DNA of 53,204 nt, taken from the NCBI RefSeq assembly GCF_002161675.1, contig NZ_NFIH01000017.1, positions 1 to 53,204 of the forward strand. The letters are read 5' to 3'. The position numbers were made by a program, and so were the translations under genes. A model generated the notes under the pieces. The model ran no database searches. It saw only the letters and a list, made by a program, of their open reading frames with translations, and was not told where the DNA came from. Positions 14,781-41,130 of the stretch are shown one piece after another. The stretch's first letter is position 1. Every line of letters begins with the position of its first letter. Origin of the DNA: Pseudoflavonifractor sp. An44. Its GTDB lineage: Bacteria; Bacillota; Clostridia; Oscillospirales; Oscillospiraceae.

Positions 14781-15338
14781 CATGGTTCCGGCTTGCCAGC
14801 CTGGTGGGGACGCTTCCCGCTGGGGGTTCCTTTTGCTCGGTCAAAAGGAACCAAAACCCGCTTAGGGCGTTCCCCCCTAAGGACCTCCCTGGGGTACGAG
14901 GCTGGACCTGCGTCAAGTCTCGATTCGGCCCGTCACCCTTGCTGTGGCGCCTAGTCGTGCCACCACACCAGGCTATTCTGGGCAACTGGCCCTATGGCTA
15001 GGTGGTTTCCACAGCCGGGCCTACCCTGGAGAAGCGGCGTTCCCGCCGCCGATCGCTGGGAACAGCGGCCCACCAGAGTAAGGCCCTGGAGGTAGAAGTT
15101 TATTTGCCATAGAAGTTGAAACTTACAATAGAATTGCCATGCCATCTATGTGGCCCCACCAGTCCAAGGGCCGAAAAGAGGAAGGTGCACGCTTCAACCA
15201 GTACCGGCGGGGTGGATTCCACAAGGCGGGGGAAGGCCCCGCCTTTGGCGGCCTTTGGTGACTTTCTGGCGGCAGAAAGTCACCCCAGCGGAGCGTCCCC
15301 ACCGGGGGCGCAGGTTTCCGTCTGAGAAATCGGAGGAG
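14781..15338 (-). repeat. Structured intergenic element, copy 1 (inverted)
   Basis: The non-coding stretch between the converging phoR and permease genes holds one copy of a three-member family; the others are 20521-21105 and 40549-41130. Read on the minus strand it starts with the 17-bp end GGGGACGCTCCGCTGGG (15300-15284) and finishes with a slightly altered inverted copy (14806-14824). Inside the first end is a stem GTGACTTTCTG/CAGAAAGTCAC; inside the second, GGTTCCTTTTG/CAAAAGGAACC. The segment in between includes GGCGGCGGGAACGCCGC and CTTAGGG...CCCTAAG hairpins shared with the other copies. Short frames over it look like chance reading of repeat DNA. Outside the core, both ends keep a weaker match including GATTTCTC. 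Confidence 0.9.
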
Positions 15339-15366
15339 TACAATCCTTCTGTATACAAGAAATCGG

Positions 15367-17988
15367 TTACAAATTCTCGTTTTTCAGCGCCTCCACCAGC
15401 TGCTGCTTGCCAACCGTTCGGGCGGCGTAGGCCATGGTGGCAAACACCACCAGGAACACGCTCAGACAGGCGATGCCCAGGGGAATCCAGGGCACTTGGA
15501 AGGGGAGGGGATAGCCTTGGGCGATGGCGTCAAAGATGAGGTAGCTGAGGAAGATGGACACGGGAATGCCCAGAATCAAGGCCCGGGTGCCGTAGAGCAC
15601 ACACTCAAAGCCCAGCATCCGCCGCATCTCCCGCGCCGTCATGCCCACCGACTGGAGCATGGCAAAGTCCCGGGTGCGGAGCATCACGTTGGTGGAAATG
15701 GTGTTGAACACATTGGTCATGGCCACCAGGGAGATGAGGGCGATGAACCCATAGGAGAACACATTGATGATGGTGATGAGGTTCCGGTTGGACTCGTCAT
15801 ATTCGGCGTTGTTAAACAGGTTGCCGGGACGCAGTTGCTGCTTGCCCAGCAAGTCCTTGATATCCTGCTCCGCTTGCTGGTGGTCCGAGGCCATTATATA
15901 GAAGTAATAGCTTCCCCGGGAGAGGTCCACGGGGAACTCCTCCAGCTGGGACATGGGATAGAGCACCGTCACAAGTCCCCCGTTGGAGAGAAAATAGGGC
16001 CATTCTTTCTCCACCAAGGTCACCTCTATGGGTGTGATGTGGGCCACATCCTCCAGCGGGTAGAGGGTGGGCGTGCCGTTATCCGCATCAATATAGGGCA
16101 CTTGGACGGTTCCGTCCAGCCCCTCCACGGGGGAGTCAGGGTAGTGGTTGGCCACCTGGTCAAAGGTGAGGGCCGACATGGACAGGGAGGAGGCTTCCAG
16201 CTGGTACAGGTACACGTATTTCTCTTGTTGAGAATCGAATTCCGTGATGCCGTCAAAGGCGATGCCGGAGGTGGCGGCGGGGTCCAGCTTCCGCGCTGCA
16301 CACAGGGCCTGGTAGGTGTCGTCGTCTACAAAGCTCAGATCGAAGGGCTGGTAAATCGTCCCGTCCACCGGAGTGGACAGCGCTTGCATGTCCTGGCTCA
16401 AATCCTCCGGGCGGAAGCCACCGGTGAGCTGGAAGCTCAGAACATAGGCGGAGTCGTCCACGCTGTCCAACCCCCGCAGCTGGTCCAGCAGGGTGTCGGG
16501 GGATAGGTCGGTGTCCTCGGTGTAAAAGGGAAAAGACAGGTCGTAGGTGTCCCCGCCAAAGGCTCCGCCCACGGATTTGGCCAGGGAGGAGGAAAAGGAG
16601 GAGGCGGAGACAAAGAGCACCACGCTGAGGAAGAGACTGAACACGGTGGTGCGATACTTTTTAGCGCTGCGCTTGTAGTACTTCACCCCCAGCACACCGG
16701 GCAGGCCGAAGAGCTTTCGGGTGAGCAGCGAGGGGCGCACCAGTTTTTTTGTGCCGTGGATGTCCTGGGACTGTCGGATGGCCTCCATGGCGGACACTTT
16801 GGTGGCTCGCCGGGAGGGAATCCAGGCGGAGAGGAGCACGGTCACCACACCCAGCACCACCGCAACCAGAATGCCTACCCAGGACACATGGAGTCTCATG
16901 GCCACTCCCCCTTGGGTGCTGGAGAAAGCAAAGAGTTTTCCCACAAAGTGGAGGGTAACCCCAATGCCCAGGATGCCGGACAGGATGCCCAGGGGGACGC
17001 CAATGGCGCTGAGGGCCAGGGCCTCAAAGCGCACCATGTTCCGCATCTGTTTTTTGGTGGCTCCCAGAGAGGAGAGCAGGCCGAACTGCCGGGTGCGCTC
17101 GGACACCGAGATGGCAAAGGCGTTGTAGATGAGAATCACCGAGGCGGCGATGATAATGACCATGACAATGGCGGCCAGACGGTAGAGGACGGTGTAAAAC
17201 GTGTCGTATTCGGATACGCCGGAGTACATCAGCACGTTGCGATTGTCCTGCTCTAAATCGTGGGCCTGTTGGAAGTCGTAGGCCTGGGTCATGTCCTCCA
17301 TGGCCAGGTACACGTCGCACGTGGCGTCCTCGGCCAGATTGGAGTCGGCCACGGTGAAGGCGGTATATCCTGGGGCGGAGTAATTCTCCATGCCCCACCG
17401 TTGGCAGATACCCACCACCGTGTAGGTGCGGGTGTCGGTCACCTCCAGAGTCTCCTCTGTGTCAAGGCTGAACGGGTTGTTTTGCCCCAGGGCGAAGCCC
17501 TCGGACATACGCTGGCCCAGCTCCAGGGTAAGGGTGTCCCCCACCTGATAGCGCTGGGTGGAGTTGTCAAAAAAGTGTTGGGGGAGCACGATTTCATCGG
17601 GAGAAGTGGGCATACGGCCCTGGGTGAGGTGGATGGGGAGCAGATCGGCCCCCATATCGGACAGGCCCAGCACATAGAAATAGGGTTTGTACTCGTTGAA
17701 ACTGCCCTCTGCCTGGGCATAGCCCAGGTGCTGCAAATAGACGGCTTCCGCCACGCCGTCGGCTTGGGACAGCTGCTGATATTCGCTGTAAGTGGTATCC
17801 TTCTGGCCCACATGCCAGCTGCCGGAGGAGTACACACTGTCGTCCAGCATAAACTGCTGGAAGCTGGTGGTGAAGGTGGTCACGGCGCACAGCATGGCGG
17901 TGGACAGGATGATACCGATAATGGTGACAATGGTGCGGGTGCGGTTTTGCTTGAGGGCCTGGAGGGTGAGCTTGTGCAGCACGTTCAT
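15367..17988 (-). CDS. FtsX-type ABC transporter permease (large, duplicated domains)
   Basis: An 873-residue membrane protein of the MacB/FtsX superfamily. One N-terminal helix (RTIVTIIGIILSTAMLCAV) is followed by a large extracytoplasmic domain and three helices (about 275-400, with FGLLSSLGATKKQMRNMV). A second half then repeats the plan: helix near 445-465, extracytoplasmic region, and three C-terminal helices with FAMLQSVGMTAREMRRML. Such permeases export or sense antimicrobial peptides, lipids or lipoproteins; the substrate is unknown. Its ATG overlaps the ATPase stop by 4 bp, and the pair follows a two-component system, as in peptide-resistance modules. Confidence 0.9.
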   Translation of the reverse strand: MNVLHKLTLQALKQNRTRTIVTIIGIILSTAMLCAVTTFTTSFQQFMLDDSVYSSGSWHVGQKDTTYSEYQQLSQADGVAEAVYLQHLGYAQAEGSFNEYKPYFYVLGLSDMGADLLPIHLTQGRMPTSPDEIVLPQHFFDNSTQRYQVGDTLTLELGQRMSEGFALGQNNPFSLDTEETLEVTDTRTYTVVGICQRWGMENYSAPGYTAFTVADSNLAEDATCDVYLAMEDMTQAYDFQQAHDLEQDNRNVLMYSGVSEYDTFYTVLYRLAAIVMVIIIAASVILIYNAFAISVSERTRQFGLLSSLGATKKQMRNMVRFEALALSAIGVPLGILSGILGIGVTLHFVGKLFAFSSTQGGVAMRLHVSWVGILVAVVLGVVTVLLSAWIPSRRATKVSAMEAIRQSQDIHGTKKLVRPSLLTRKLFGLPGVLGVKYYKRSAKKYRTTVFSLFLSVVLFVSASSFSSSLAKSVGGAFGGDTYDLSFPFYTEDTDLSPDTLLDQLRGLDSVDDSAYVLSFQLTGGFRPEDLSQDMQALSTPVDGTIYQPFDLSFVDDDTYQALCAARKLDPAATSGIAFDGITEFDSQQEKYVYLYQLEASSLSMSALTFDQVANHYPDSPVEGLDGTVQVPYIDADNGTPTLYPLEDVAHITPIEVTLVEKEWPYFLSNGGLVTVLYPMSQLEEFPVDLSRGSYYFYIMASDHQQAEQDIKDLLGKQQLRPGNLFNNAEYDESNRNLITIINVFSYGFIALISLVAMTNVFNTISTNVMLRTRDFAMLQSVGMTAREMRRMLGFECVLYGTRALILGIPVSIFLSYLIFDAIAQGYPLPFQVPWIPLGIACLSVFLVVFATMAYAARTVGKQQLVEALKNENL

Positions 17989-18668
17989 GGGCGAATCACC
18001 TCGTCCCGCACAATTTTACCGTCCTCAATGGCGATGATGCGGTCGGCCTGGAGGGCCAGCTGTTCATCGTGGGTGATGACAATGAGGGTCTGGTGATAGG
18101 TGCGGTTGGACAGCCGCAGCAGCTCCACGATCTCCTGGCTGTTTTTGGAGTCCAGGTTGCCGGTGGGCTCGTCGGCCAGCACCACCGCCGGGGCGTTCAT
18201 CAACGCCCGACCGATGGACACCCGCTGCTGCTGGCCGCCGGAGAGCTGGTTGGGCAGGTGCCGCTCCCGGCCCCGCAGCCCTAAGGTGTCCAGCAGTTCA
18301 TTCAGCCGCTTTTGGTTCACCTTCTGCCCGTCCAGCTGGACGGGGAGGGTCATATTCTCCACCACGTCCAGCACGGGGATGAGGTTGTAAAACTGGTAGA
18401 TCAGCCCCACCTGACGGCGGCGGAAGATGGCCAGCTTCTCCTCGTTTTGGGCGTACACGTCGCAGCCGTCCACATACACCTTGCCGCTGGTGGGTTTGTC
18501 CACGCCGCCCAGCAGGTGCAGCAGGGTGGACTTGCCCGACCCGGAGGGGCCGATGATGGCCACAAATTCCCCTCTGTTTACGGAAAAGGACACGTCATCC
18601 AGGGCTTTGACTTGATTTTCCCCGGTGCCGTAGGTTTTGCACAAATGCTCCACACGAAGCAGTTCCAT
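17985..18668 (-). CDS. ABC transporter ATPase (MacB/LolD/BceA type)
   Basis: A 227-residue ATPase with Walker A GPSGSGKST, Q-loop IYQFYNLIPVLDVVENM, signature LSGGQQQR, Walker B VVLADEPTGNLDS and the switch His in VITHDEQ. The EPTGNLDS Walker B context is characteristic of the MacB/LolD/BceA branch. The second ATG (18668) is preferred over 18674 because AAAGGAGGAATGAAC precedes it at normal spacing. It pairs with the downstream FtsX-type permease. Three 11-bp-spaced repeats at 18714-18741 lie just upstream. Confidence 0.94.
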   Translation of the reverse strand: MELLRVEHLCKTYGTGENQVKALDDVSFSVNRGEFVAIIGPSGSGKSTLLHLLGGVDKPTSGKVYVDGCDVYAQNEEKLAIFRRRQVGLIYQFYNLIPVLDVVENMTLPVQLDGQKVNQKRLNELLDTLGLRGRERHLPNQLSGGQQQRVSIGRALMNAPAVVLADEPTGNLDSKNSQEIVELLRLSNRTYHQTLIVITHDEQLALQADRIIAIEDGKIVRDEVIRP

Positions 18669-18713
18669 GTTCATTCCTCCTTTGGGATTGTGGCTTTATG
18701 ATATCAGACCCAG

Positions 18714-18741
18714 GTGACAGGGCTGTGACTTTCCAGTGACA
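18714..18741 (-). promoter_or_regulatory. Probable response-regulator binding repeats before the ABC operon
   Basis: On the minus strand TGTCAC, AGTCAC and TGTCAC recur at exact 11-bp steps (18741-18736, 18730-18725, 18719-18714). Downstream is an extended -10-like TGATATCAT. Eleven-bp direct repeats suit an OmpR/PhoB-class regulator, and one is encoded just upstream (19759-20433). Its activation of the ABC transporter through this site is inferred. Confidence 0.7.
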
Positions 18742-18751
18742 GATCCGTCAC

Positions 18752-18779
18752 AAAAGGGACCGCCCATCAGACGGTCCCC
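18752..18779 (-). terminator. Hairpin at the end of the kinase gene
   Basis: GGGACCG and CGGTCCC pair around a 9-nt loop, and on the minus strand TTTT follows. The kinase stop codon lies inside the hairpin. It would partly separate the RR-HK transcript from the ABC genes. Confidence 0.65.
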
Positions 18780-19762
18780 TTGTAAAAGCGTAACACGAAT
18801 TGTGCCCCCTGGGGGGTGCGGTTGCGGGCCTGGATGGTGCCGCCCTGTCCGGTGACAATGCGCTGGGTCAGGGACAGGCCGATGCCAAAGCCGTGGGACG
18901 TGCGGGAGGTGCCCCGGTAGAACCGCTCAAAGAGGTGGGGCAGGTCCTGAGGGTCAATCCCCGGCCCGGTGTCCTCCACCACCAGCTCACTAAAGAGGGC
19001 ATTTTCCCGCCCACGAACGGTAATAGAACCCCCGGCAGGAGTGTGCTCCATGGCGTTTTTGATGAGATTGCCAACTCCTTCCGCCGTCCAGTGCACATCT
19101 CCAATAAAGGAGCCGGAACAGTCCACAGAAAACGTCTGTTCCCGCAGCTCCATGGGGATGAGAAAGGGGGCGGCGGCTTGGCGCACCACCTCCTCCAGGG
19201 GGACGGTGTCCGAGCGGAAGGGGATGGTGCCCGCCTCCAGCTTAGAGAGTTTCAGAAGGGTGGTCACCAGCCAGTCCATCTGGCTGAGCAGCTGATAGAG
19301 CTCCCGGCACAGCTTGGCCCGCCGCTGGGGGGTGAGGTCCTCTTTGTACAGTAGCTCCGCCACCAGATTCATGGAGGTGAGGGGGGTGCGCAGCTGGTGG
19401 GACAGGTCGGCCAGGGAGTTGGCCAGATACACCTTGTCCGCTTGCAGGGCCTGCTGCTGCTCCCGCAGCCGCACCGTCATCTTGTGAATTTCACTGCGCA
19501 GGATGCCCAATTCTCCCTCGCTGTATTCCTCCACCCCCAGGTGCTCCTCCCCGTGGAGAATGCGGTTGAGGGTCTGGGAGAGCTGGGCCAGTTCCCGGTC
19601 GGTGCGGGCGGCGTTCCACTCCGCCAAGCCCCAAAAGCCCAGGCACAGGGGGAGAAGGAGCAACCCCTGGAGTCCGCCCAGGTACCACCCGAACCCGGTG
19701 GCAGCCCCGGTGAGGGCCAGATACAGCAGCCGGGTGACGGTCTTGTGTTCCAAGGGATTCAC
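18767..19762 (-). CDS. Sensor histidine kinase of the ABC-transporter two-component system
   Basis: A 331-residue kinase. Two closely spaced N-terminal helices (about 12-30 and 33-48) leave almost no extracellular loop, so it may sense within the membrane or through the transporter. A dimerisation region with phospho-acceptor His122 (LADLSHQLRTPLTSMN) is followed by ATPase boxes VEDTGPGIDPQDLP and GFGIGLSLTQRIV. It overlaps the response-regulator stop by 4 bp. The neighbouring ABC genes suggest a Bce/VraSR-like envelope-stress or peptide-resistance module; the signal is unknown. Confidence 0.92.
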   Translation of the reverse strand: MNPLEHKTVTRLLYLALTGAATGFGWYLGGLQGLLLLPLCLGFWGLAEWNAARTDRELAQLSQTLNRILHGEEHLGVEEYSEGELGILRSEIHKMTVRLREQQQALQADKVYLANSLADLSHQLRTPLTSMNLVAELLYKEDLTPQRRAKLCRELYQLLSQMDWLVTTLLKLSKLEAGTIPFRSDTVPLEEVVRQAAAPFLIPMELREQTFSVDCSGSFIGDVHWTAEGVGNLIKNAMEHTPAGGSITVRGRENALFSELVVEDTGPGIDPQDLPHLFERFYRGTSRTSHGFGIGLSLTQRIVTGQGGTIQARNRTPQGAQFVLRFYKGTV

Positions 19763-20433
19763 CTCATTTCCGCCTTATAGCCCAGACCCCGCACGGTCTT
19801 GATGAGGGTGGGGCTTTGGGGGTCGTCCTCGATTTTCTCCCGCAGCCGCTTGATGTACACCGTCAGGGTGTTGTCGTTGACAAAGTCCCCGGCAATGTCC
19901 CAGATGCCCTCCAGCAGCTGGCTTCGGGTGAGCACGGCCCCGGGGTGGTTGAGGAACATCAGCAGCAGCCGATACTCCAGAGCGGACAGGTTCAGGTCCC
20001 GGCCGTCCTTGGTGGCGGTGCCTCGCACGGTGTCCACTTCCACACGGCCCAGGCGCACCAGCCCGCCGCCGCTGCCTGTGCGCCGCAGCACATTTTTGAT
20101 GCGCATGAGCAGTTCCCGGGGGCGGAAGGGCTTGGGAATGTAGTCGTCCGCCCCCACCTCGAACCCGGTGACGGTGCTGTACTCGTCCCCGGAGGCGGTG
20201 AGGAAAATCACCGGAAGGTGGTATAGGGCCTTGACCGCCGAGCACACCGCAAAGCCGTTGCCGTCGGAGAGGGAGATGTCCAGCAGGATGAGGTCGAACT
20301 GCTCTTGTTCCAGCCGCTCCAGAGCCCCGGCCTGGCCCGATGCACTGCATACCCGGAAGCCCTCCCCCTCCAGATACTCGGTGAGGTTGTCCACAATGTG
20401 TCTGTCGTCTTCCACTAAGAGAATGGATTGCAT
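19759..20433 (-). CDS. Response regulator of the ABC-transporter two-component system
   Basis: A 224-residue OmpR-class regulator starting MQSILLVEDDRHIVDNL. The receiver has Asp9/Asp10, phospho-acceptor Asp52 (LILLDISLSDGNG), Thr/Ser in FLTASGDE and Lys in PKPFRP. The C-terminal winged helix ends TLTVYIKRLREKIEDD and VRGLGYK. Upstream in-frame starts extend into repeat element 2 and are rejected. The likely target is the repeat cluster at 18714-18741. Confidence 0.93.
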   Translation of the reverse strand: MQSILLVEDDRHIVDNLTEYLEGEGFRVCSASGQAGALERLEQEQFDLILLDISLSDGNGFAVCSAVKALYHLPVIFLTASGDEYSTVTGFEVGADDYIPKPFRPRELLMRIKNVLRRTGSGGGLVRLGRVEVDTVRGTATKDGRDLNLSALEYRLLLMFLNHPGAVLTRSQLLEGIWDIAGDFVNDNTLTVYIKRLREKIEDDPQSPTLIKTVRGLGYKAEMR

Positions 20434-20520
20434 AGTTTCACCCGCCTTTTTTGTCATGATACCATACATGCATGCCTTTTTCCAGGGAGAAACATGCCAA
20501 GAGTAACAGGAAGGCTTTCT

Positions 20521-21105
20521 CTTCTCCAATTTCTCAGGAGAATGTCCCCATCTTGGCGGGGACGCTCCGCTGGGCCCAATTTCTCAGCGATGAGAAATTG
20601 GGGAAAGAATCGCCAAAGGCGGGGCCTTCCCCCGCCTTGTGGAATCCACCCCGCGGTACTGGATGGGTGTGCAACCTCCTCTGTTCGGCCCTTGGCCCGG
20701 TGGGGTCACATAGATGGCATGGAATTTCCACAGAATGCACCTGCTTGTTGTGGAACATTATGCTTCTACCGCCAGGGCCTTACCCTGGTGTGCAACTGTT
20801 CCCAGTTGCCGGAGGTTTGGCTCCCGGCGGCGGGAACGCCGCTTCTCCAGAGTAGGCCCGGAGGTGGAAACCACCCAGTCATAGGGCCAGTTGCCATGGT
20901 GGCTTGGTGTGGTGGCAGAGACAGGGGCCACAGCAAGGGTGACGGGCCGAACACCAGCTTGACGCATTGACAGCCTCGTACCCCAAGGGAGGTACCTAGG
21001 GGGGAACGCCCTAGGCGGGTTTTGGTGACTTTTGCCCGAACAAAAGTCACCCCAGCGGAGCGTCCCCGGCTGGGACGCAGGTTTGCGCCGGAGAAATCGG
21101 AGAAG
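20521..21105 (+). repeat. Structured intergenic element, copy 2
   Basis: This copy fills the divergent gap between the response regulator and metN. It has perfect inverted ends, GGGGACGCTCCGCTGGG at 20558-20574 and its complement at 21051-21067. Weaker outer matches (CTTCTCC plus ATTTCTC) extend to 20521 and 21105. Stems next to the ends are CAATTTCTC/GAGAAATTG (left) and GGTGACTTTTG/CAAAAGTCACC (right). Internal stems include GCAACTG/CAGTTGC, GGCG...CGCC and CCTAGGG...CCCTAGG. Its right half matches copy 1 closely through the motif GGTGACGGGCCGAA. No credible gene is present. Confidence 0.92.
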
Positions 21106-21151
21106 TAGAGACTTCTAAAGCAGAGGAGGAGACAATGGGATGTATGCCCTA

Positions 21152-21180
21152 TTGACACAGTAGGAAAATTGTCATAGAAT
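21152..21180 (+). promoter_or_regulatory. metNI promoter
   Basis: TTGACA (21152-21157), a 17-bp spacer and TAGAAT (21175-21180) precede metN by 36 bp. The leader is too short for a T-box or SAM riboswitch, unlike the metQ leader. Confidence 0.8.
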
Positions 21181-21215
21181 CAAACCACTGTTTGAAAACA
21201 AAGGGAGAAGATCCT

Positions 21216-22220
21216 ATGATTGAGTTAAAACATATCACAAAACGCTTCCCCACCCCGGAGGGGGAGCTCACCGCCTTGCACGACGTGTCCCTGACCATTG
21301 GAGATGGGGATATCTTCGGCATTGTGGGCATGAGCGGGGCGGGCAAGTCCACCCTGGTGCGCTGCCTGAACCTGCTGGAGCGGCCCAGTGAGGGCCAGGT
21401 GGTCATTGACGGGGAGGACCTGTGCGCCATGTCCCAAAAGGAGCTGACCCTGCGCCGCCGCTCCATCAGCATGATCTTCCAGCACTTCAACCTGCTCATG
21501 CAGCGCACCTGCCTGGACAACATCTGTTTCCCCATGGAGATTGCGGGGAAGAAGGGGCCTGAGGTGAAGAAAAAGGCCCGGGAGCTGCTGGACATTGTGG
21601 GCCTGCCCGACAAGGCGGACGCCTACCCCGCCCAACTCTCCGGCGGCCAGAAGCAGCGCATTGCCATCGCCCGTGCCCTGGCCTCCGACCCTAAGATTTT
21701 GCTGTGCGACGAGGCCACCTCCGCCCTGGACCCTAAGACCACCCGGGACATTCTGCGCCTCATTCAGGACATCAACCGCCGCCTGGGTATCACCGTGGTC
21801 ATCATCACCCACGAGATGGGGGTTATCGAGGAGATCTGCTCCCATGTGGCCATTCTGGACCACGGCGTGCTCCAGGAGACGGGGACGGTGGAGGAGACCT
21901 TCTCCAACCCCAAGACCGAGGCGGGCCGCCGTCTGGTGTACCCCGACGGGGTCATCATCGACCAGCTGCCTGCGGCCAATGTCATCCGCATCGCCTTCAA
22001 CGGCAGCTCCTCCTATGAGCCCCTCATCGCCTCCCTGGCCATGGACTGCCAGGTGAAGGTGAATATCCTGGGTGCCGACACCCGCAACGTGGACGGCAAG
22101 GCCTTCGGCACCATGCTGCTGGGCCTGCCGGAAAACGCAGAGGAGCGGGAGCGGGCCATCCAGTACATCAAGAATCAACCCAATGTGACCATGGAGGAGG
22201 TGCACGACTATCATGGATGA
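21216..22220 (+). CDS. metN: Methionine ABC transporter ATPase MetN
   Basis: MetN drives methionine import with MetI and MetQ. The 334-residue product has Walker [10 protein letters not shown], signature LSGGQKQR, Walker [14 protein letters not shown] and switch His in IITHEMG. The C-terminal NIL/ACT-like domain (about 255-334, [17 protein letters not shown]) is the methionine-sensing domain specific to MetN. The ATG at 21216 follows AAAGGGAGAAGATCCT. The last 8 bp overlap metI. Confidence 0.96.
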
Positions 22221-22980: not shown

Positions 22981-22987
22981 AATGTAT

Positions 22988-23027: not shown

Positions 23028-23041
23028 GTGCAATCTGCTGG

Positions 23042-32557: not shown

Positions 32558-33175
32558 ATGCCAGAACAAACCGAAAAGCTGCTTCACTTCACCGAAGAGG
32601 TGGTGCGCAACGCCGCCCAGCAGAGTGAGCAGATGAAGAAAGAATTGGAAGAGCAGCGGGCTGCCGCTCTGGCAGAGGCCAAAATTGAGGCCAAGGACGC
32701 TGCCCGGTCCTATTACGATAAGGAGGCCGCCCGTATCCGGGCGGAGTCCGGCCGGGAGGTGTCCCGGCACCTGATGGACAGCAAGCGCCAGATTTACCTG
32801 CGCCGCAAGGAGATCACCCAGGAAGTGTTTGAGCAGGTGTGTGAGCGCATCCGCACCTTCACCGGCACCCCTGACTACTATGACCACATGGTGCAGATGC
32901 TCCGCCGTGCCATGGAGCAGCTGCCCGGGGCTCAGGAGGTGACGGTGCAGCTGCGGGGGGAGGACATGTCCTTCGCCCCCAAGCTCTCCGCCGCCCTGGC
33001 CCCGGTAAAGGTGGAGTGCCAGGAGGGAAGCTTCTCCCTGGGCGGCTTCATCCTCCAGTGCAGCCAGTTAGGGCTGCGGGTGGACTGCTCCTTCGACAAC
33101 CGGCTGGACGAGTTGGCCGGCCACTTCGCCGAGTCCTTCGGGCTGTCCCTGTCCGATGACTTGGACGAGATGTAA
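32558..33175 (+). CDS. V-type ATPase subunit E
   Basis: A 205-residue peripheral-stalk subunit. The N-terminal 80 residues are a long charged helix (SEQMKKELEEQRAAALAEAK) that should pair with the G/H subunit; a globular C-terminal domain follows. The ATG at 32558 follows AAGGAGGGATCTCAAC. A longer in-frame extension overlaps subunit F and is rejected. Here E lies after F and directly before A, away from its usual place near K. Confidence 0.88.
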   Translation: MPEQTEKLLHFTEEVVRNAAQQSEQMKKELEEQRAAALAEAKIEAKDAARSYYDKEAARIRAESGREVSRHLMDSKRQIYLRRKEITQEVFEQVCERIRTFTGTPDYYDHMVQMLRRAMEQLPGAQEVTVQLRGEDMSFAPKLSAALAPVKVECQEGSFSLGGFILQCSQLGLRVDCSFDNRLDELAGHFAESFGLSLSDDLDEM

Positions 33176-33190
33176 GGAGGGGGAAGTGGA

Positions 33191-34954
33191 ATGAGTGAAT
33201 ATCGCATTTACAGTGTCAACGGCCCTGTGGTAAAGGTAGTGGGTGGCAAAGGCCTGGCCATGATGGACATGGTGTTTGCCGGCGACCAGCAGCTCATCGG
33301 CGAAGTGGTGGGCGTGGAAGGGGACATGACCACCGTGCAGGTGTACGAGGACACCGCCGGACTGGCCCCCGGTCAGCCGGTCACCACCACCGGGTCCCCC
33401 ATGGCCCTGATGCTGGGCCCCGGCCTGCTGGGCAACATCTTTGACGGCATTGCCCGCCCCTTGAAGAGCCTGGAGGCCATTTCCGGCCCCTTCCTGGGCC
33501 GAGGGGTCAACATCCCCGCCCTGGACCTCTCCAAGAAATGGGACGTGGAGATCACCGTGAAAGAGGGAGACCCGGTCAAGCCCGGCACCCTCTACGCCCA
33601 GTGCCAGGAGACCTCCGCCATCCTCCACCGCTGCCTCACCCCCGCCGGACTCAACGGCACCGTCACCCGGGTGATGCCCAATGGCCCTTACACCGTGGAG
33701 GACGTGCTGGTGGAGGTCACCGATGCCCGAGGCAAGGTGACGAGTCTGAAACTGGCCACCCGGTGCACCATCCGAGGCGCCCGGCCCATCGCCCAGCGTC
33801 TGCCCATCCACCGCCCCCTCATCACGGGTCAGCGGATTTTGGACACCCTCTTCCCCATCGGCAAGGGGGGCGCCGCCGCCATCCCCGGCCCCTTCGGCGC
33901 AGGCAAGACCATGACCCAGCACCAGCTGGCCAAGTGGTCGGACGCAGACATCATCGTCTACTTAGGCTGCGGCGAGCGTGGCAACGAGATGACCCAGGCC
34001 CTGGAGGAGTTCTCCGAGCTGAAGGACCCCCGCACCGGGCTGCCCCTGATGAACCGTACCATCTTGATTGCCAATACGTCCAATATGCCGGTGGCTGCCC
34101 GTGAGGCTTCGGTGTACACCGGCATGACCATTGCCGAGTACTACCGGGACATGGGCTACCACGTGGCCCTCATGGCCGACTCCACCTCCCGCTGGGCCGA
34201 GGCGCTCCGTGAGATCTCCGGCCGCCTGGAGGAGATGCCCGCCGAAGAGGGCTTCCCCGCCTACCTGGCCTCCCGCCTGGCCGAGTTCTACGAGCGGGCG
34301 GGCTACGTGGAGACCCTGGAGGGCAAGGAGGGCTCCGTCACCGTCATCGGCGCCGTGTCCCCCCAGGGCGGCGACTTCTCCGAGCCGGTGACCCAGAACA
34401 CCAAGCGCTTTGTCCGCTGCTTCTGGGCCCTGGACCGAAGCCTGGCCTACGCCCGGCACTTCCCCTCCATCAACTGGCTCAACTCCTACTCGGAGTACAC
34501 CGTGGATTTCAAAGACTGGTACAGTGAGAACGTCTCCCCGGACTTCGCCCCCTGCCGTCAGCGCATTGCCAACCTGCTGCGGGAGGAGAGCCAGCTGATG
34601 GAGATCGTCAAGCTCATTGGCTCGGACATTCTCCCTGAAAACCAGAAGCTCATCATGGAGACCGCCCGCCTCATCCGCCTGGGCTTCCTCCAGCAGAACT
34701 CCTATAACCCTGTGGACACCTATGTGCCCCTGAAAAAGCAGCTGCTGATGATGCAGACCATTCTGCGCCTCTACGACGGGGTGAAGGAGGGTATTGACCG
34801 CTCCATTCCCCTGTCCCAGTACACCGCCACCGGCATCTTCGACACGGTGGTGAAGATGAAGTACGAGATTCCCAACGAAGACCTGTCCAAGTTCGACGAC
34901 TACGCCGCCATGATCGACAAAGCCCTGGAGCAGGTCAACACTGCCAATAGCTGA
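33191..34954 (+). CDS. V-type ATPase catalytic subunit A
   Basis: A 587-residue catalytic subunit. The P-loop is GPFGAGKTM (about residue 236), preceded by the non-homologous insert typical of V-type A subunits (about 110-190). The catalytic Glu lies in [28 protein letters not shown] is the conserved motif downstream, and the arginine-rich interface region follows. The ATG follows AAGGAGGGGGAAGTGGA. Confidence 0.97.
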
Positions 34955-34964
34955 GGTGACTGCC

Positions 34965-36362
34965 ATGAGATTGGAATATACCGGACTATCTGACCTGAAC
35001 GGCTCCCTGGTGGCCCTGGAAGGGGTCTCCGGCGTGTCTTACGACGAGATGGCCGAGCTGGTGATGGCCGACGGCTCCCGCCGCTATGGCCGTGTCATTC
35101 TCATCGAGGGCGACCGGGCGGTGCTCCAGGTGTTTGAGGGCACCCGTGGCATCTCTCTGGAGAACACCTCCACCCACTTCACCGGAAAGCCCATGGACAT
35201 TGCCCTGTCCAAGGAGATGCTGGGCCGTGTCTTTGACGGCGCGGGCCGCCCCATTGACGGCCTGGGCGAGCTGTACCCCGACGAGCGGCGCAACATCAAC
35301 GGCTCCGCCATCAACCCGGTGAGCCGCCAGTACCCCCGCAGCTGCATCTACACCGGCGTGTCCGCCATCGACGGCACGTCTACCCTGATTCGTGGCCAGA
35401 AGCTGCCCATCTTCTCCGGCGCTGGTATGGCTCACAATGAGCTGGCCGCCCAGATGGTGCGCCAGGCCCACGTGGCCGGGGACGACGGGGAGTTCGCCAT
35501 CGTCTTTGCCGCCATGGGCGTGAAAAACGACGTGGCCGAGTTCTTCCGCCGCAACTTTGAGGAGTCCGGGGCTCTGCCCCGGGTGGCCATGTTCCTGAAC
35601 TTGGCCTCCGACCCCATCATTGAGCGTATCCTCACCCCCCGCTGCGCCCTCACCGCCGCCGAGTATCTGGCCTTCAACCACGGCTACCACGTGCTGGTGG
35701 TGATGACCGACATGACCTCCTACTGCGAGGCCGTCCGTGAGTTCTCCTCCTCCAAGGGCGAGATTCCCTCCCGTAAGGGCTTCCCCGCCTACCTGTACTC
35801 CGATTTGGCCTCCCTCTACGAGCGGGCGGGCATGATCGTGGGCAAGAAGGGCTCGGTGACCCAGGTGCCCATCCTCACCATGCCCAACGACGACATCACC
35901 CACCCCATCCCCGACCTGACGGGCTACATCACTGAGGGCCAGATCGTGTTGGACCGGAACATGGACCAGTCCGGGGTCTATCCCCCCATCAACATCCTGT
36001 CCTCTCTGTCCCGTCTGATGAAGGACGGCATCGGCGAGGGCTACACCCGGGCCGACCATCCCGCCCTGTCCAACCAGCTGTTTGCCTCCTACTCCAAGGT
36101 ACAGGACGCCCGCAGCCTGGCCTCGGTCATCGGCGAGGATGAGCTGTCCCCCCTGGACCAGCAGTACCTGCGCTTTGGCCGGGCCTTCGAGCAGTACTTT
36201 GTCCGCCAGGGCCAGCAGGAGGACCGCACCCTGGAGCAGACCCTGGAGCTGGGCTGGGCCCTGCTGTCCATCCTGCCCAAAGGCGAGCTGGACCGCATCA
36301 GCGACAAGGAGCTGGAAGAGCACTACAAGGAAGGGGCCTTCGAGTCCCTGGGCGAGCTGTAA
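34965..36362 (+). CDS. V-type ATPase subunit B
   Basis: A 465-residue non-catalytic subunit. It shows the B-type degenerate nucleotide site [20 protein letters not shown] in place of a P-loop, [15 protein letters not shown], and the family motif [23 protein letters not shown] with the arginine finger near the middle. The ATG at 34965 follows GAGGTGACTGCC; an in-frame GTG at 34956 is a less likely start. Confidence 0.96.
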
Positions 36363-36392
36363 TGGGACACGTGACGGAAAGGGGGTGGCCCA

Positions 36393-37001
36393 ATGGCTGC
36401 CATTCTGCCCACCAAGGGTAACCTCATGGCCGCCAAGCGCTCCCGGGCGCTGGCAACCACCGGCTATGAGCTGATGGACCGGAAGCGGAACATTCTGGTC
36501 CGTGAAATGATGACACTGATGGAGGACGCCTCCCGCATCCAGCGGGAGATTGACCAGGTCTTCCAGTCCGCCTATATCGCCCTGGCCAAGGCAAACATCG
36601 AGCTGGGCCTGTGCGACCGCATCGCGGAGGGCGTGGAGCCGGACAACAGTCTGGACGTGCGCTGGCGCTCGGTGATGGGGGTGGAGCTGCCCCACATCCC
36701 CGACAACACCCCGCCCCTGAGCCCCACCTATGGCTTTGCCTATACGTCCCCCGCCTTCGACCAGGCCTACATTCAGTTTGCCAAGGTCAAGGATTTGACC
36801 CGGCGTATGGCGGAGGTGGAGATCTCCATCTACCGCCTGGCCCAGGCCATCAAGAAGGCCCAGAAGCGGGCCAACGCCCTGAAAAACATCGTCATCCCCG
36901 ACCTGGACAACACCATTCGCTTCATCACTGAGGCGTTGGAGGAAAAGGAACGGGAGGAGTTTGTGCGTCTGAAGGTCATCAAGCGCCAGACGGGCAAATA
37001 A
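36393..37001 (+). CDS. V-type ATPase central-shaft subunit D
   Basis: A 202-residue protein of two long helices that form the rotating shaft. It starts near MAAILPTKGNLMAAKRSRALA, with the conserved PTKxNL and a Lys/Arg-rich first helix, and ends in the second long helix (RRMAEVEISIYRLAQAIKKAQKRANAL). It closes the operon 30 bp after subunit B and is followed by a terminator. Confidence 0.94.
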   Translation: MAAILPTKGNLMAAKRSRALATTGYELMDRKRNILVREMMTLMEDASRIQREIDQVFQSAYIALAKANIELGLCDRIAEGVEPDNSLDVRWRSVMGVELPHIPDNTPPLSPTYGFAYTSPAFDQAYIQFAKVKDLTRRMAEVEISIYRLAQAIKKAQKRANALKNIVIPDLDNTIRFITEALEEKEREEFVRLKVIKRQTGK

Positions 37002-37002
37002 C

Positions 37003-37051
37003 CGAAAAAAATACCCCTGAGACGCACAAACAAGTCTCAGGGGTATTTTTC
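37003..37051. terminator. Bidirectional terminator between the ATPase operon and the lipoprotein gene
   Basis: AATACCCCTGAGAC pairs with GTCTCAGGGGTATT around a 10-nt loop, with A and T runs outside. Two genes converge here. Confidence 0.93.
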
Positions 37052-37054
37052 TGC

Positions 37055-37570
37055 TTATTCGCTTCGGATGGTGTCCTGATTGGTGTTCTGGATGCCGTTC
37101 TCGTCCTGGGTGACGGTGATGGCATAGTCGTGAATCTCCCACAGGGAGGCAGCAGCTGGGATGGACAGATCCAGGGACAGGTGGACCACATTCCCTTCCA
37201 GGGTGATGCCGTCCTCCTCCCGGTAGACGGTGTAGGAGTCTTGGGCCAGCTCCAACTGCTGGGTCACGCCGTTGTCGCCCAGAAGGAACAGGGTGGAGGA
37301 GGAGCCGCTCTCGGTGTCTTTGGCGATGACAGCCGCATGGATGGGGGTGGTGTCTAGGCTGCCCACGGCGTAGTCCAGCAGCTCATAGCCGGGGTGGTCC
37401 TGGGAGAAGGTCTCCACAAAGGCCTCCGCCTCCTCCTCATAGGGGTTGGGCGTGGGGGCCACCGTGGGGGTGGGCGTAGGGGTAGGGGTGGGAGTGCCAA
37501 GGGTACAGCCGGGCAGCGCCACCAGAAGAGCGGCGGAGAGAGCCGCTGCACAGAGCTTGTATTTGTCCAT
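37055..37570 (-). CDS. Predicted lipoprotein of unknown function with a Thr-Pro spacer
   Basis: A 171-residue exported protein. MDKYKLCAAALSAALLVALPGC is a lipoprotein signal (LPGC). It is followed by a low-complexity spacer of TP repeats (TPTPTPTPTVAPTP) that would hold the folded part off the membrane. The remaining 120 residues, with YAVGSLDTTPIHAAVIAKD and SLWEIHDYAITV, form a mostly beta domain I do not recognise. The ATG at 37570 follows GAGGTGTGAAC. It has its own promoter and is convergent with the ATPase operon. Confidence 0.8.
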   Translation of the reverse strand: MDKYKLCAAALSAALLVALPGCTLGTPTPTPTPTPTVAPTPNPYEEEAEAFVETFSQDHPGYELLDYAVGSLDTTPIHAAVIAKDTESGSSSTLFLLGDNGVTQQLELAQDSYTVYREEDGITLEGNVVHLSLDLSIPAAASLWEIHDYAITVTQDENGIQNTNQDTIRSE

Positions 37571-37603
37571 GTTCACACCTCGTTGTTTTCAGATTTACGG
37601 GGT

Positions 37604-37633
37604 ATTGTATCAGACTTGGGGTGGAAAAGTCAA
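37604..37633 (-). promoter_or_regulatory. Promoter of the lipoprotein gene
   Basis: On the minus strand TTGACT (37633-37628), 18 bp and TGATACAAT (extended -10, TACAAT at 37609-37604). Confidence 0.7.
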
Positions 37634-37656
37634 CACAACCGGGTCGAAAGGGGGTA

Positions 37657-37697
37657 CAAAAAGGGTGCGCCTTCCCGATGTTTGGGAGGCGCACCCT
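37657..37697 (-). terminator. Terminator of the Spo0A-domain gene
   Basis: AGGGTGCGCCTCCC pairs with GGAAGGCGCACCCT; on the minus strand TTTTTG follows. Confidence 0.9.
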
Positions 37698-37701
37698 GGG
37701 G

Positions 37702-38019
37702 TCATTCTGCCAGTTGCTTCACCAGTCCGTGGAGAAATTCGGTCACCGTGGGCCGGGCCTTGCCTTCGCACATCTGGGAGACCTGGGCCTGGCACCGGGT
37801 ACAGCACAGGGAGATGGCGGTGCGCATGGCGCTGTCCACCGCTCCGGGGTTCATGCCGAAGAACCGGGCCACCTCGGGGTAGAGCCGCTTGGTGGCCATG
37901 TCCAGGTAGGTGTCGTCGGCCTGAATGAGATGCACGCTGTACACCAGACAGTGGTACCCCTGATAGTTTCCCATCAGGCCTAGGGAGCGCAGCTTATTCT
38001 CAACAGTCGGATCTACCAT
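37702..38019 (-). CDS. Stand-alone Spo0A C-terminal-domain-like DNA-binding protein
   Basis: A 105-residue, wholly helical protein. LRSLGLMGNYQGYHCLVYSV, TKRLYPEVARFFGMNPGAVDSAMRTAI and PTVTEFLHGLVKQL follow the pattern of the Spo0A effector domain. There the GYxYL, LYPxVA and VERAIRHAIE segments form the DNA-binding helices and KPTNSEFIA the C-terminal helix. No receiver domain is present, so it cannot be phosphorylated like Spo0A. Three or more cysteines (LCCTRCQAQ, MCEG) sit where Spo0A has its tryptophan/arginine segment, possibly binding metal or sensing redox (speculative). It has its own terminator. Confidence 0.75.
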   Translation of the reverse strand: MVDPTVENKLRSLGLMGNYQGYHCLVYSVHLIQADDTYLDMATKRLYPEVARFFGMNPGAVDSAMRTAISLCCTRCQAQVSQMCEGKARPTVTEFLHGLVKQLAE

Positions 38020-38091
38020 GGTCTCTCGCTTCTTTCTCTCTGTTTGAATCTTATGTTACAGGGGGAAAGTGGGAATGTCAAGGGGTGGGGG

Positions 38092-39180
38092 TTAGGACAG
38101 GGTCAGGTCTCCCTCCCGAATCCAGCCAATCCGGCGCAGCAGCAGGCCGAAGGCCCAGGTGAGCACGGCGGGGAGGATGAAGCAGAGGAGGGCCATGGCC
38201 ACCCAGTCCATGGCGGTGATGGCGGCTTTGGCCCCGTTGGCCACATCGTTGACCCATCCGGCGTATACCCCAATGGGGCCCACCATGCCGCAGGTGCCCA
38301 TGCCCGAGGCCACGCCGCCGGAGGGGTCATTCATCTGGAACTGGAACACGCAGGTGGCCAGAGGTCCCGTGATGGCGGAGGTGAAAATGGCGGGCAGCCA
38401 GATGCGGGGGTTGCGGACGATGTTGCCCATTTGCAGCATGGAGGTGCCCAGGCCCTGGCTGATGAGGCCGCCCCACCGGTTTTCCCGGAAGGAGAGGAAG
38501 GCAAAGCCCACCATGTTGGCGCAGCAGCCTGCCACCGCAGCGCCGCCCGCCAGTCCGGTCAGGCCAATGGCGGCGCAGATGGCCGCCGAGGAGATGGGGA
38601 GGGTGAGGGCCACGCCAATGACCACAGACACCAGAATGCCCATCCAGAAGGGCTGGAGCACAGTGGCCCACTCCACAAAGTCACCCACGGAGGAGGCGGC
38701 GGTGCCGATGGCGGGGGCCCACCAGGCGGACAGGCCCACACCCACCAGAATGGTCACCAGGGGGGTGACCAGAATGTCAATTTTGGTCTCTTTGCTCACC
38801 AGCTTGCCCAGCTCGGCGGCGATAATGGCGATGAACAGCACCGCCAGGGGACCGCCGGCTCCCGACCCGCCGTCCAGAGTGGTAGAGCCCAGGGCGTTGG
38901 CGGCGTAGCCCACAGTGACCAGGGAGAAGAGCACCAGGGAAGGGGCTTTCAGGGCGTAGCCGATGGCCACGGCCATGGCCGCCCCGCTCATGGCGGAGGC
39001 GTAGCCGCCTACCGTCACCAGCACCTCCAGCCCCAGCTGTTTGCCTAAGGTATTTAAGATGGTACCGATGAGCAGGGAGCAGAACAGGCCTTGGGCCATG
39101 GCCCCCAGGGCGTCAATGCCGTACCGCTTGCCCGAGATGACAACGTCCTTTCGGGCCAAAAACTCCTTGAATTTGGACAT
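38092..39180 (-). CDS. PfoR / PTS EIIC-2 family membrane protein
   Basis: A 362-residue polytopic protein with about ten helices. It starts MSKFKEFLARKDVVISGKRYGIDALGAMAQGLF and has GLGTSMLQMGN, RNPRIWLPAIFTSAITGPLAT and SGMGTCGMVGPIGVYAGW. These match the PfoR-like EIIC proteins annotated as PTS transporter subunit IIC or toxin regulator. No EIIA or EIIB gene is adjacent, which is usual for the family, and the substrate is unknown. The ATG follows AAGGAGGAAATCCC. Its promoter carries a perfect palindrome. Confidence 0.85.
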   Translation of the reverse strand: MSKFKEFLARKDVVISGKRYGIDALGAMAQGLFCSLLIGTILNTLGKQLGLEVLVTVGGYASAMSGAAMAVAIGYALKAPSLVLFSLVTVGYAANALGSTTLDGGSGAGGPLAVLFIAIIAAELGKLVSKETKIDILVTPLVTILVGVGLSAWWAPAIGTAASSVGDFVEWATVLQPFWMGILVSVVIGVALTLPISSAAICAAIGLTGLAGGAAVAGCCANMVGFAFLSFRENRWGGLISQGLGTSMLQMGNIVRNPRIWLPAIFTSAITGPLATCVFQFQMNDPSGGVASGMGTCGMVGPIGVYAGWVNDVANGAKAAITAMDWVAMALLCFILPAVLTWAFGLLLRRIGWIREGDLTLS

Positions 39181-39210
39181 GGGATTTCCTCCTTCTTTCT
39201 ATCCATACAG

Positions 39211-39261
39211 GTGTCATGACACAAGTGGGTTTTATTATACGAGATTTTTTTCCCTTGTCAA
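39211..39261 (-). promoter_or_regulatory. Promoter and palindromic operator of the PfoR-like gene
   Basis: On the minus strand TTGACA (39261-39256), 16 bp and TATAAT (39239-39234) form a strong promoter. The perfect 12-bp palindrome GTGTCATGACAC (39211-39222) lies just past the start point, suited to a repressor. The regulator is not evident in the window. Confidence 0.75.
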
Positions 39262-39283
39262 TGTGCATGTTTCACAACTCTCC

Positions 39284-39313
39284 TTGCCAGGGGCGGCGGA
39301 AGCGTGCTATACT
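39284..39313 (+). promoter_or_regulatory. Promoter of the DUF4317 gene
   Basis: TTGCCA (39284-39289), an 18-bp spacer and TATACT (39308-39313), 51 bp before the ATG. Confidence 0.6.
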
Positions 39314-39364
39314 GATATTCCCCCGCTGTGGGGGTTGATACCGAGTTATAAGGAGTATTCCACC

Positions 39365-40498
39365 ATGAATGAGAAGGAAATCGGCGAAATTCGCCGCCGC
39401 TTTAAAGATGACCGCAATGCCATCGGCTCCATCCGGGGCTGTTATGTCAATGAACTCAAGCACATTGTATCCCAGTTCAACCAGCCCTTGTCCATGCTCA
39501 GCGAGGACGAGCGGGACATGTTCCTGGGGGTGCTGCGCAAGACCCTCTCGGGCAAGCTGGGGAAGAACCTGCTGCCCATGGAGTTTGAGACCCAGCAGGT
39601 GGCCTATGGGGAGGAGCACAAGCTGCTGATGACGGTGCGGGACTCCGCCTTGAAGGATGACGCCGCCGTGGAGGAGCTGTTCCGCCGCATTGTGGAGACG
39701 GTGGAGCTGGAGGGCAGCTATCTCATTCTGCTCATTCAGGACAGCTACGACGTGCCCTACCGGGGCAAGGACGGCAGCCGCCAGGACGATGGGGGCAACG
39801 AGGTGTACCGCTATATTATGTGCTCCATCTGTCCCGTGAAGGAGACCAAGCCTGCCTTGAGCTACTACATGCGGGAAAATGAGTTTCACAACCGCCAGAT
39901 GAACCACCTGGTCAGTCCCCCCGCTCTGGGCTTTTTGTTCCCCGCCTTTGACGAGCGCAGCACCAACCTGTATGGGGCGCTCTTTTACACCAAGGACACC
40001 AAGGCCAGCCAGGAGGCTATGTGGAGCGAGCTGTTCCGCTGCCAGCCTCCCATGCCTGCCCAGGCCCAGAAGGAGACCTTCCAGACCATTTTCAGCGAGG
40101 CCCTGGAGGGACAGGGCAGCTACGAGGTGGTGGAAGGGGTGCACCAGCAGCTGCGAGAGATGATGGAGGTCCATAAGGAGAGCCACGAGCCGGAGCCTCT
40201 GACCCTGAACCATGGGGAGATGGCGGGTGTACTGCGTTCCTGCGGGGTGCCCGCCCACTGCGCCGAGGAGTTCGGACGCAAGTTCCAGGAGGCCTTTGGG
40301 GAGGAGACCGCCATCAACCCCGCCAACGTCATCCAGCCCAAGCAGGTGGAGGTGGCCGCCGCCGACGTGACGGTGCGTCTGCCCGCCGAGCAGAGCGACC
40401 TGGTGTCCACCCGGGTCATTGACGGGGTAAAGTACATTTTGATCCGTGCCCAGGACGGGGTGCAGGTCAACGGCGTAGACATTGCCATTGAGGAATAA
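39365..40498 (+). CDS. DUF4317 family protein, function unknown
   Basis: A 377-residue soluble protein. It starts MNEKEIGEIRRRFKDDRNAI, with the family's GCYVNE near residue 28, LLIQDSYDVPYRG and YIMCSICPVKETKPALSYY. This matches the DUF4317 proteins common in gut Clostridia. There is no signal peptide or membrane helix. The ATG at 39365 follows AAGGAGTATTCCACC; a longer in-frame stretch upstream runs through the promoter. No function is known; it is single-gene, with its own terminator. Confidence 0.85.
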   Translation: MNEKEIGEIRRRFKDDRNAIGSIRGCYVNELKHIVSQFNQPLSMLSEDERDMFLGVLRKTLSGKLGKNLLPMEFETQQVAYGEEHKLLMTVRDSALKDDAAVEELFRRIVETVELEGSYLILLIQDSYDVPYRGKDGSRQDDGGNEVYRYIMCSICPVKETKPALSYYMRENEFHNRQMNHLVSPPALGFLFPAFDERSTNLYGALFYTKDTKASQEAMWSELFRCQPPMPAQAQKETFQTIFSEALEGQGSYEVVEGVHQQLREMMEVHKESHEPEPLTLNHGEMAGVLRSCGVPAHCAEEFGRKFQEAFGEETAINPANVIQPKQVEVAAADVTVRLPAEQSDLVSTRVIDGVKYILIRAQDGVQVNGVDIAIEE

Positions 40499-40501
40499 GA
40501 G

Positions 40502-40532
40502 AAGGAGGAAGCTGTGTGCTTCCTCCTTTTTC
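40502..40532 (+). terminator. Terminator after the DUF4317 gene
   Basis: AAGGAGGAAGC pairs with GCTTCCTCCTT around a 5-nt loop, followed by TTT. Confidence 0.92.
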
Positions 40533-40548
40533 TTAGGAAGAAGAGTTG

Positions 40549-41130
40549 CTTCTCCGATTTCCTCGGCAGAAACCAGCGCCCCTCCAGGGACGCTCCGCTG
40601 GGCCCGATTTCTCAGCGATGAGAAATCGGGGAAAGAATCGCCAAAGGCGGGGCCTTCCCCCGCCTTGTGGAATCCACCCCGCGGTACTGGGAGTCCCTGC
40701 GTCCTCCTTGTTTCGGCCCTTAGCCTGGTGGGGTCACATAGATGACTTGTCGTTCTATGGTTTGTATTTACTCCTCTGTTCGTGTGTCCTTCTACTGCCA
40801 GGGCCTTACCTTGGAATGCAACTGTTCCCAGTTGCCGGAGGCCTGGCTCCCGGCGGCGGAAACGCCGCACACCGGGGTGAGGCCCTGGAAACAGAGGTAC
40901 AGTCTCACAGAGAAGGAAATGCTTGCTATAGACTTGCCAGGCCATCTATGTGACCCCACCGGGGCCAGGGCCGGCCATAGGATTGACGCAGTTCCAGCCT
41001 CGTACCCCAGGGGGGTCCTTAGGGGGGAACGCCCTAAGCGGGTTTTGGTTCCTTTTGACCGAGCAAAAGGAACCCCAAGCGGGGAGCGTCCCCGCCTGGC
41101 TGGCAAGCCTGTGCCAAGGAGAAACAGGAG
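40549..41130 (+). repeat. Structured intergenic element, copy 3
   Basis: It lies between the DUF4317 terminator and the acpP promoter, in the same orientation as copy 2. The left end GGGACGCTCCGCTGGG is at 40587-40602; the right end, 41073-41093, is an altered complement. End stems are CGATTTCTC/GAGAAATCG and GGTTCCTTTTG/CAAAAGGAACC. Shared internal hairpins are GCAACTG/CAGTTGC, GGCGGCGGAAACGCCGC and CTTAGGG...CCCTAAG. Its centre differs from copies 1 and 2. It holds a second, inverted copy of an 18-bp internal motif (40727-40744 versus 40943-40960), as if assembled from parts of two elements. No credible gene is present. Confidence 0.92.

Follow-up and report, generated by a model that had tools for sequence, protein, structure and literature searches.

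The window analyzed here, a 53,204-nucleotide contig (NZ_NFIH01000017.1, C9 in our numbering) of the 2.75-Mb, 51-contig genome of Pseudoflavonifractor sp. An44 (G000), contains three intergenic gaps occupied by copies of a single noncoding element of ~560 to 585 bp (Table 1). By a simple codon score, copy 1 lies between convergent genes, copy 2 between divergent genes, and copy 3 within a tandem pair. An initial annotation of this DNA had recognized the three-copy family and its insertion in unrelated contexts, both of which our analyses bear out, and had considered it a mobile repeat resembling a miniature inverted-repeat transposable element (MITE), a structured RNA family, or both. The three copies can be aligned over their whole length in blocks that are 78 to 93% alike, one 44-nt block being identical in all three. 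A search of the genome with copy 2 returned at least 83 matching stretches, a lower bound because 40 of the 87 candidates were scored, and chance can therefore be excluded as the source of the likeness. At least 37 near-full copies, the set used in the analyses below, are present alongside fragments and hybrids.

The copies share a clear anatomy. Copy 2 has a perfect 17-bp motif (GGGGACGCTCCGCTGGG) at either end, and copy 1 has one at a single end; the motif carries one mismatch at the left end of copy 3 and is altered at the two remaining ends (one each of copies 1 and 3), much as first described. From the outside inward, a typical copy consists of an outer arm, GGGGACGCTCCGCTGGG, and an ~11-bp hairpin with a stem that varies in its letters from copy to copy, followed, after an A-rich spacer, by a second hairpin and by the interior, which contains many hairpins. 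The arms outside the motif are, in most copies, 40 to 50 bp long and come in two versions, each with its own small hairpin. For an alignment of 59 near-full copies with this interior (type I), the folding energies of the two strands are −326.6 and −328.5 kcal/mol; six of 65 copies whose 60-mer was already present (four duplicates of the same copy and two copies in another genome) were dropped from it. Folded as single-stranded DNA, copy 2 reaches a z score of −8.9 against shuffled sequences, none of 100 shuffles doing as well. Protein coding was considered and rejected: every one of the six frames of the interior is stopped in 53 to 59 of the 59 aligned copies, no frame is open in common, and only single copies have stop-free runs, of 77 to 199 codons. 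The earlier judgment that the gaps hold no plausible protein thus stands.

The ends in G000 also enclose other interiors (type II, further interiors, and hybrids), and the genome holds end-only remnants as well as copies interrupted by other repeats or by an apparent insertion sequence. At both ends of an 8.25-kb contig (C36; loci L105, L079, and L093), an insertion sequence that we take, by eye, to resemble the IS30 type sits inside the left-end hairpin of the element.

Matches to the element were found in nine of the 40 genomes searched, G000 included, all of the same genus, those in G009 and G019 being weak or piecemeal; Pseudoflavonifractor capillosus An386a (G018) holds at least 28. An exact 30-mer from the left interior occurs in 65 stretches of an 84,980-species collection, from which G000 may be absent, and all lie in five named genomes: Candidatus Enterenecus avicola, P. 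capillosus An386a, and three uncultured Oscillospiraceae. This subfamily is thus restricted to a small clade. The 30-mer has no exact match in viral contigs, and copy 2 has no match in phages or plasmids. Genome G099 was examined as a source of clean, recent boundaries and set aside, its copies being likewise mosaic and mostly 73 to 93% alike between different loci.

A covarying end module

The hairpin, the A-rich spacer, and a word of 4 to 5 bases that pairs with the hairpin loop form a module present at both ends of the element in inverted orientation. Across the loci collected we listed 139 distinct modules in which a perfect stem, 9 bp or longer, precedes a second hairpin. The loop and the end of the spacer vary jointly (CGGG/CCCG, CGAT/ATCG, TGGG/CCCA, TGGC/GCCA, and CGGC/GCCG), and complementarity of at least 4 bases is found in 72 of 85 distinct pairs, whereas 2,000 shuffles average 25.1 and never exceed 37. 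When positions are held fixed, all four bases pair in 110 of 137 ends (two could not be parsed), and the 24 distinct loop/spacer combinations contain 61 Watson-Crick pairs in total (shuffle mean, 45.3; maximum, 60). The purine run of the spacer likewise follows the stem's pyrimidine run (TTTT with AAAA, TTTCT with AAAGA), matching over at least four positions in 102 of 109 cases (shuffle mean, 51.6; maximum, 67); as a stem T-run and a spacer AAA or AAG were conditions of the module filter, only the correlation between the two is informative. These shuffles keep the relatedness among ends, and their results are not to be read as probabilities. The loop/spacer pairing is nonetheless beyond chance. 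Its predicted geometry is that of an H-type pseudoknot, perhaps with a triplex in addition.

The module extends well beyond the genus. Within the bacterial family, a covariance model of the two hairpins (R1), built from 39 ends and not encoding the loop/spacer pairing, matches 49 of 150 genomes and 40 of 106 genera; many of the 49 have ten or more matches, and 101 family genomes have none. R1 also matches 12 of 391 genomes in a sample of the class and eight of 398 in a sample of the phylum (G000 is counted in each). At 15 or more loci in other genera, R1 matches face each other as inverted pairs ~380 to 800 bp apart, which is the same architecture in other letters. Loop and spacer are complementary in 53 of 65 distinct ends from these genera (shuffle mean, 13.2; maximum, 23), a set hand-picked from full-length matches with a hairpin of at least 8 bp (six matches lacked one), partial matches, same-place repeats, and a few of the weakest being left out. 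A rerun on all aligned matches, with the A-rich stretch removed, gave 48 of 68 for the family, 47 of 62 for the genus, and 8 of 22 for class and phylum together, a set that includes one G000 locus; the shuffle maxima were 19, 32, and 6. The more distant genomes use words of their own, such as CGTG/CACG, CGAC/GTCG, and GATTC/GAATC.

At one locus from another family of the class (L379; G513 C44:96881-97925), two inverted ends with equal scores stand 1,045 bp from each other and enclose a 59-aa open reading frame that resembles, by eye, a small DNA-binding protein; a third, interrupted end lies in between.

Table 1. Copies of the element in the window, their 17-bp inverted repeats, and their end modules
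Feature	Coordinates	Strand	Remarks
Copy 1, type I element	14781..15338	-	same copy at same site in G006
Copy 2, type I element	20521..21105	+	orthologous site in G006 with flipped, different interior
Copy 3, type I element	40549..41130	+	orthologous sites in G006 and G024 occupied
17-bp inverted repeat, copy 1, one end	15284..15300	-	0 mismatches
17-bp inverted repeat, copy 2, left end	20558..20574	+	0 mismatches
17-bp inverted repeat, copy 2, right end	21051..21067	-	0 mismatches
17-bp inverted repeat, copy 3, left end	40586..40602	+	1 mismatch
End module, copy 1, low-coordinate end	14825..14861	+	3-base pairing only
End module, copy 1, high-coordinate end	15247..15284	-	loop GCCGCC; exception class, pairs unlike others
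End module, copy 2, left	20575..20613	+	stem, loop GCGAT, A-rich spacer, pairing word ATCGC; 5-base pairing
End module, copy 2, right	21015..21051	-	loop CGGG, pairing word CCCG; 4-base pairing
End module, copy 3, left	40603..40641	+	loop GCGAT, pairing word ATCGC; 5-base pairing
End module, copy 3, right	41038..41074	-	3-base pairing only, CGG/CCG

Persistent sites with changing occupants

None of the 37 copies in G000 lies inside a gene by the codon score. Among the 33 with both neighbors called, 13 separate convergent, 17 tandem, and three divergent gene pairs, and several copies directly follow a terminator-like hairpin and T-run. Judged by their flanks, 13 sites are common to sister species, and at four of these the element is flipped. 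Where the element is flipped, some other copy is mostly closer than the ortholog, which ranks 49, 53, 19, 4, 57, and 6 of 60; in the 15 same-orientation comparisons it ranks first in ten and second to fifth in five.

Between copy 2 and its counterpart in G006, the nearest species tested, the left flank and arm show a single base difference as far as the inner edge of the 17-bp motif, beyond which identity is lost; on the right the arm is 87% alike, and the interior can be matched (88%) only when flipped. At L028, the arms of G020 and G006 are 93 to 97% alike and the flipped interior 79% alike, and we therefore consider this interior to have been replaced. Replacement also occurs without a flip, for example between L004 and L056, whose arms are 96 to 97% and whose interiors are 87% alike. 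Three of the 20 pairs listed for this comparison lack the motif and were not scored. In copy 3, an internal arm is duplicated in inverted orientation (40714-40749 and 40938-40973 of the window; 36 nt, 83% complementary). The same copy in G006 carries the duplication as well, which would place this rearrangement before the two species split.

We queried seven relatives with the joined flanks of 14 sites. At 10 of the 14, G006 has an insert between matching flanks: six of 590 to 680 bp, three larger (L020, L057, and L060), and one of 440 bp (L058). Near-empty sites, for which the initial annotation had advised a search, were found in sister species at three places: 7 bp separate the flanks of the copy 1 site in G001, 8 bp those of L029 in G020, and 11 bp those of L011 in G001. 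The copy 1 site is also filled by a different repeat in G018 and by a pair of other hairpin repeats in G020. The sites thus persist in close species, with a turnover of occupants. Two larger orthologous gaps were considered as autonomous copies and rejected, L158 being the element with other sequence in its middle and L159 consisting of two ordinary open reading frames with no match to the element.

Two other repeats occur at such sites. One, unrelated to the element and of the TCCCTCCG..GGGAGG type (~55 to 65 bp), has many matches in G006, G020, and G024 among the genomes searched, often abuts the element (in G000, for example, on the right flanks of L002, L007, L021, and L023), and in G020 replaces the element as an inverted pair at the copy 1 site (L147; contig C59). 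A third repeat, of ~230 to 300 bp, occupies orthologous sites at L146 (G018 C179) and L153 (G020 C65); at the copy 1 site in G018 the terminator hairpin flanks this repeat on either side, as though insertion had duplicated the hairpin.

A proposed folded DNA element and its alternatives

The reading that we favor, at a little under an even chance, is that the three gaps hold copies of a nonautonomous, MITE-like palindromic DNA element that is recognized as folded DNA and whose interiors are exchanged between copies. Each end carries the inverted module of hairpin, A-rich spacer, and loop-pairing word, maintained by pairing rather than by sequence. An enzyme acting in trans would recognize these folded, probably single-stranded, ends and spread the element into gaps, for the most part downstream of genes. 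At an occupied site, the site itself and, where this is clear, the outer arms stay in place, and everything from the hairpin inward is exchanged between copies in either orientation, probably through recombination at the 17-bp inverted repeats or close to them.

Several observations weigh against this proposal. The outer arms are well kept at only two of the flipped sites; at the other two they are 76 to 80% alike, and the comparison is one-sided. No empty site was found in G006 among the 10 sites resolved of 14, and no recent insertion is therefore seen there. Inspection by eye of the flanks of 37 copies revealed no evident target duplication, the empty sites being too diverged beside the element to yield exact ends, and no autonomous parent with the same ends was seen among the loci retrieved, in a search that was not exhaustive. 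Three of the window's six ends either reach no more than 3 paired bases or depart from the usual pairing, one of them with an apparently inverted loop. Type II copies lean to G-U over A-C mismatches (87 versus 54, in 24 rows of which some are overlapping versions of one copy), a tendency toward RNA that we cannot discount. Finally, a control with the spacer reversed also scores high (40 of 68 for the family, 28 of 62 for the genus, and 6 of 22 for class and phylum), at least in part, we think, because many of the words are nearly mirror-symmetric. The antiparallel match is the longer one in 69 of 89 untied cases (three sets together, with 63 ties), and a control stretch upstream of the stem gives 17 of 70, 14 of 64, and 1 of 22 versus 54, 51, and 10 for the spacer.

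Whether the structure serves as DNA or as RNA can be approached through its mismatches. On a transcribed strand, G-U is expected to replace Watson-Crick pairs far more often than A-C mismatches do. The larger sets show no such bias. In helices of type I predicted on both strands, there are 157 G-U pairs and 184 A-C mismatches. The seven inner stem pairs and seven second-hairpin pairs of the end modules contain 12 G-U, 23 A-C, 18 other, and 2,639 Watson-Crick cells (~2,690 pair cells), a count in which weak pairs may be hidden because the model-building stems were perfect by choice. The four outer stem pairs, set aside because one-base shifts misalign them, gave 20 G-U and 97 A-C. One alignment, A5, comprises at most 150 of the 159 matches. 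Given the lack of a G-U excess in type I and the end modules, and two strands that fold equally well, function at the DNA level is more likely than function as RNA. We regard as improbable a family of structured noncoding RNAs that are expressed from the gaps and whose pseudoknots serve in protein binding or in RNA metabolism. An H-type layout whose third strand is A-rich is a familiar trait of RNA pseudoknots, the type II mismatches lean in the direction that RNA would require, and among strand-specific helices of type I there are 12 G-U-majority pairs on the plus strand only against four A-C-majority pairs on the other strand only. Because the ends are inverted copies of each other, however, no single transcript can hold both in sense orientation, and the element is inconsistently oriented to genes and flips at orthologous sites. 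Rfam also offers no counterpart: at the gathering score only tRNAs were found in the window, and two copies searched at E values up to 5 returned chance-level matches only, in keeping with the earlier failure to recognize a named family. Of the first proposal of a structured RNA, the structure survives, in the form of pseudoknot-like ends, and the evidence favors DNA over RNA, the lean of type II aside.

The chief rival to a folded, enzyme-recognized DNA element, and one that we judge unlikely, is a passive palindromic repeat that spread long ago and whose perfect hairpins are kept up by template switching at quasi-palindromes and by ectopic gene conversion between copies, no enzyme being involved and structure being under no current selection. 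Mosaic copies with interiors exchanged between sites and stems of nearly perfect Watson-Crick pairing are what it would produce. Also in its favor, private mutations, counted in 44 copies after 15 orthologs were dropped, differ only 1.5-fold (0.0122 per site and copy in paired versus 0.0185 in unpaired columns). Total diversity in the 59 copies differs more, at 0.141 for paired and 0.315 for unpaired columns. The two measures together fit selection that acts chiefly during the spread or exchange of copies and constrains single copies less. What template switching leaves unexplained is a match of 4 to 5 bases between loop and spacer, across an 11-bp stem and in dozens of words, together with a layout conserved over 40 genera. 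Still less probable than the RNA family, in our view, is an invertible or insulating host element in which a recombinase flips the interior between the 17-bp repeats and so switches or shields neighboring genes. Flips bounded by an inverted repeat at orthologous sites, positions after gene ends and often after terminator-like hairpins, and sites kept across species are all consistent with such a role. The flipped interiors, however, are mostly other copies (79 to 88% identity) rather than the same copy inverted, few copies lie between divergent genes (the three of 33 counted above), some sites in sister species are empty, and 101 of the 150 family genomes do without any match.

We also entertain, as a possibility that is doubtful though less so than a passive repeat, a broader extension of the folded-DNA reading: a widespread bacterial class of mobile DNA whose two inverted DNA-pseudoknot ends (possibly with a purine triplex between spacer and stem) would be recognized by shape, neither the outer stem nor the loop/spacer word having much fixed sequence, and whose interior would be a swappable cassette exchanged between fixed docking sites. 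If the folded-DNA reading is right, much unannotated intergenic DNA in gut Oscillospiraceae would belong to a single superfamily of mobile palindromes whose hallmark is a covarying DNA fold and not a sequence, and this would account for its having escaped sequence-based repeat finders. Interiors exchanged at fixed sites are a visible form of genome change between species. To our knowledge, naturally selected DNA pseudoknots have hardly been documented.

Known systems and other features of the window

The MITE-like character first proposed fits the element. Like bacterial MITEs, the element is short and noncoding, has terminal inverted repeats, and exists in many dispersed intergenic copies with some orthologous sites empty or otherwise occupied; unlike them, it has yielded neither a target duplication nor a parent transposase. 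The usual definition of a MITE, as we know it, includes neither covarying pseudoknot-like ends nor exchanged interiors. We likewise know of no loop/spacer pairing in repetitive extragenic palindromic (REP) sequences. REP sequences, REP doublets forming hairpins (REPINs), and bacterial interspersed mosaic elements (BIMEs) with a RAYT (Y1) transposase appear as multicopy extragenic palindromes, mosaic and possibly recognized as folded single-stranded DNA (PMC2817692, PMC3116915, PMC8266576). The element shares these traits and is far longer. A search for Y1 (PF01797) transposases at an E value of ≤0.001 found none in the element-rich genomes G006, G010, and G018, one weak partial match is present in G000, and none of 20 loci examined has an end motif within two mismatches; we therefore reject RAYT/Y1 as the driver. 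The element thus works like a MITE or a REPIN, yet no RAYT in those three genomes, no Rfam match, and no parent has been found for it.

The ends of IS200/IS605 elements carry subterminal hairpins with a short nearby base-pairing word and are not inverted repeats of each other. The element resembles them in pairing an end hairpin with a nearby word, and differs in that its ends are inverted and have no Y1 gene beside them; PMC5934647 mentions tetranucleotide base pairing. The nearest published notion, in PMC11109978, is a set of 250 mobile/repeat sequence candidates (MRSC) that are covarying, multicopy, and possibly active as DNA. The element is likewise covarying, multicopy, and mobile looking, may act as DNA, and might be one of the 250. 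MRSC-65-2, the candidate treated most fully there, is described as one long stem with a UYCCGG repeat and no pseudoknot, and the pseudoknot-like ends set the element apart from that description. Searches of open-license PMC papers returned no title or opening of an abstract in which the element is described.

Elsewhere in the window, two direct 300-nt copies (51475-51774 and 52525-52824), 90% identical, lie inside one long open frame on the minus strand (51355-52860) and represent either a repeated domain or a duplication. A cluster of five tRNA genes occupies positions 5902-6597 on the minus strand.

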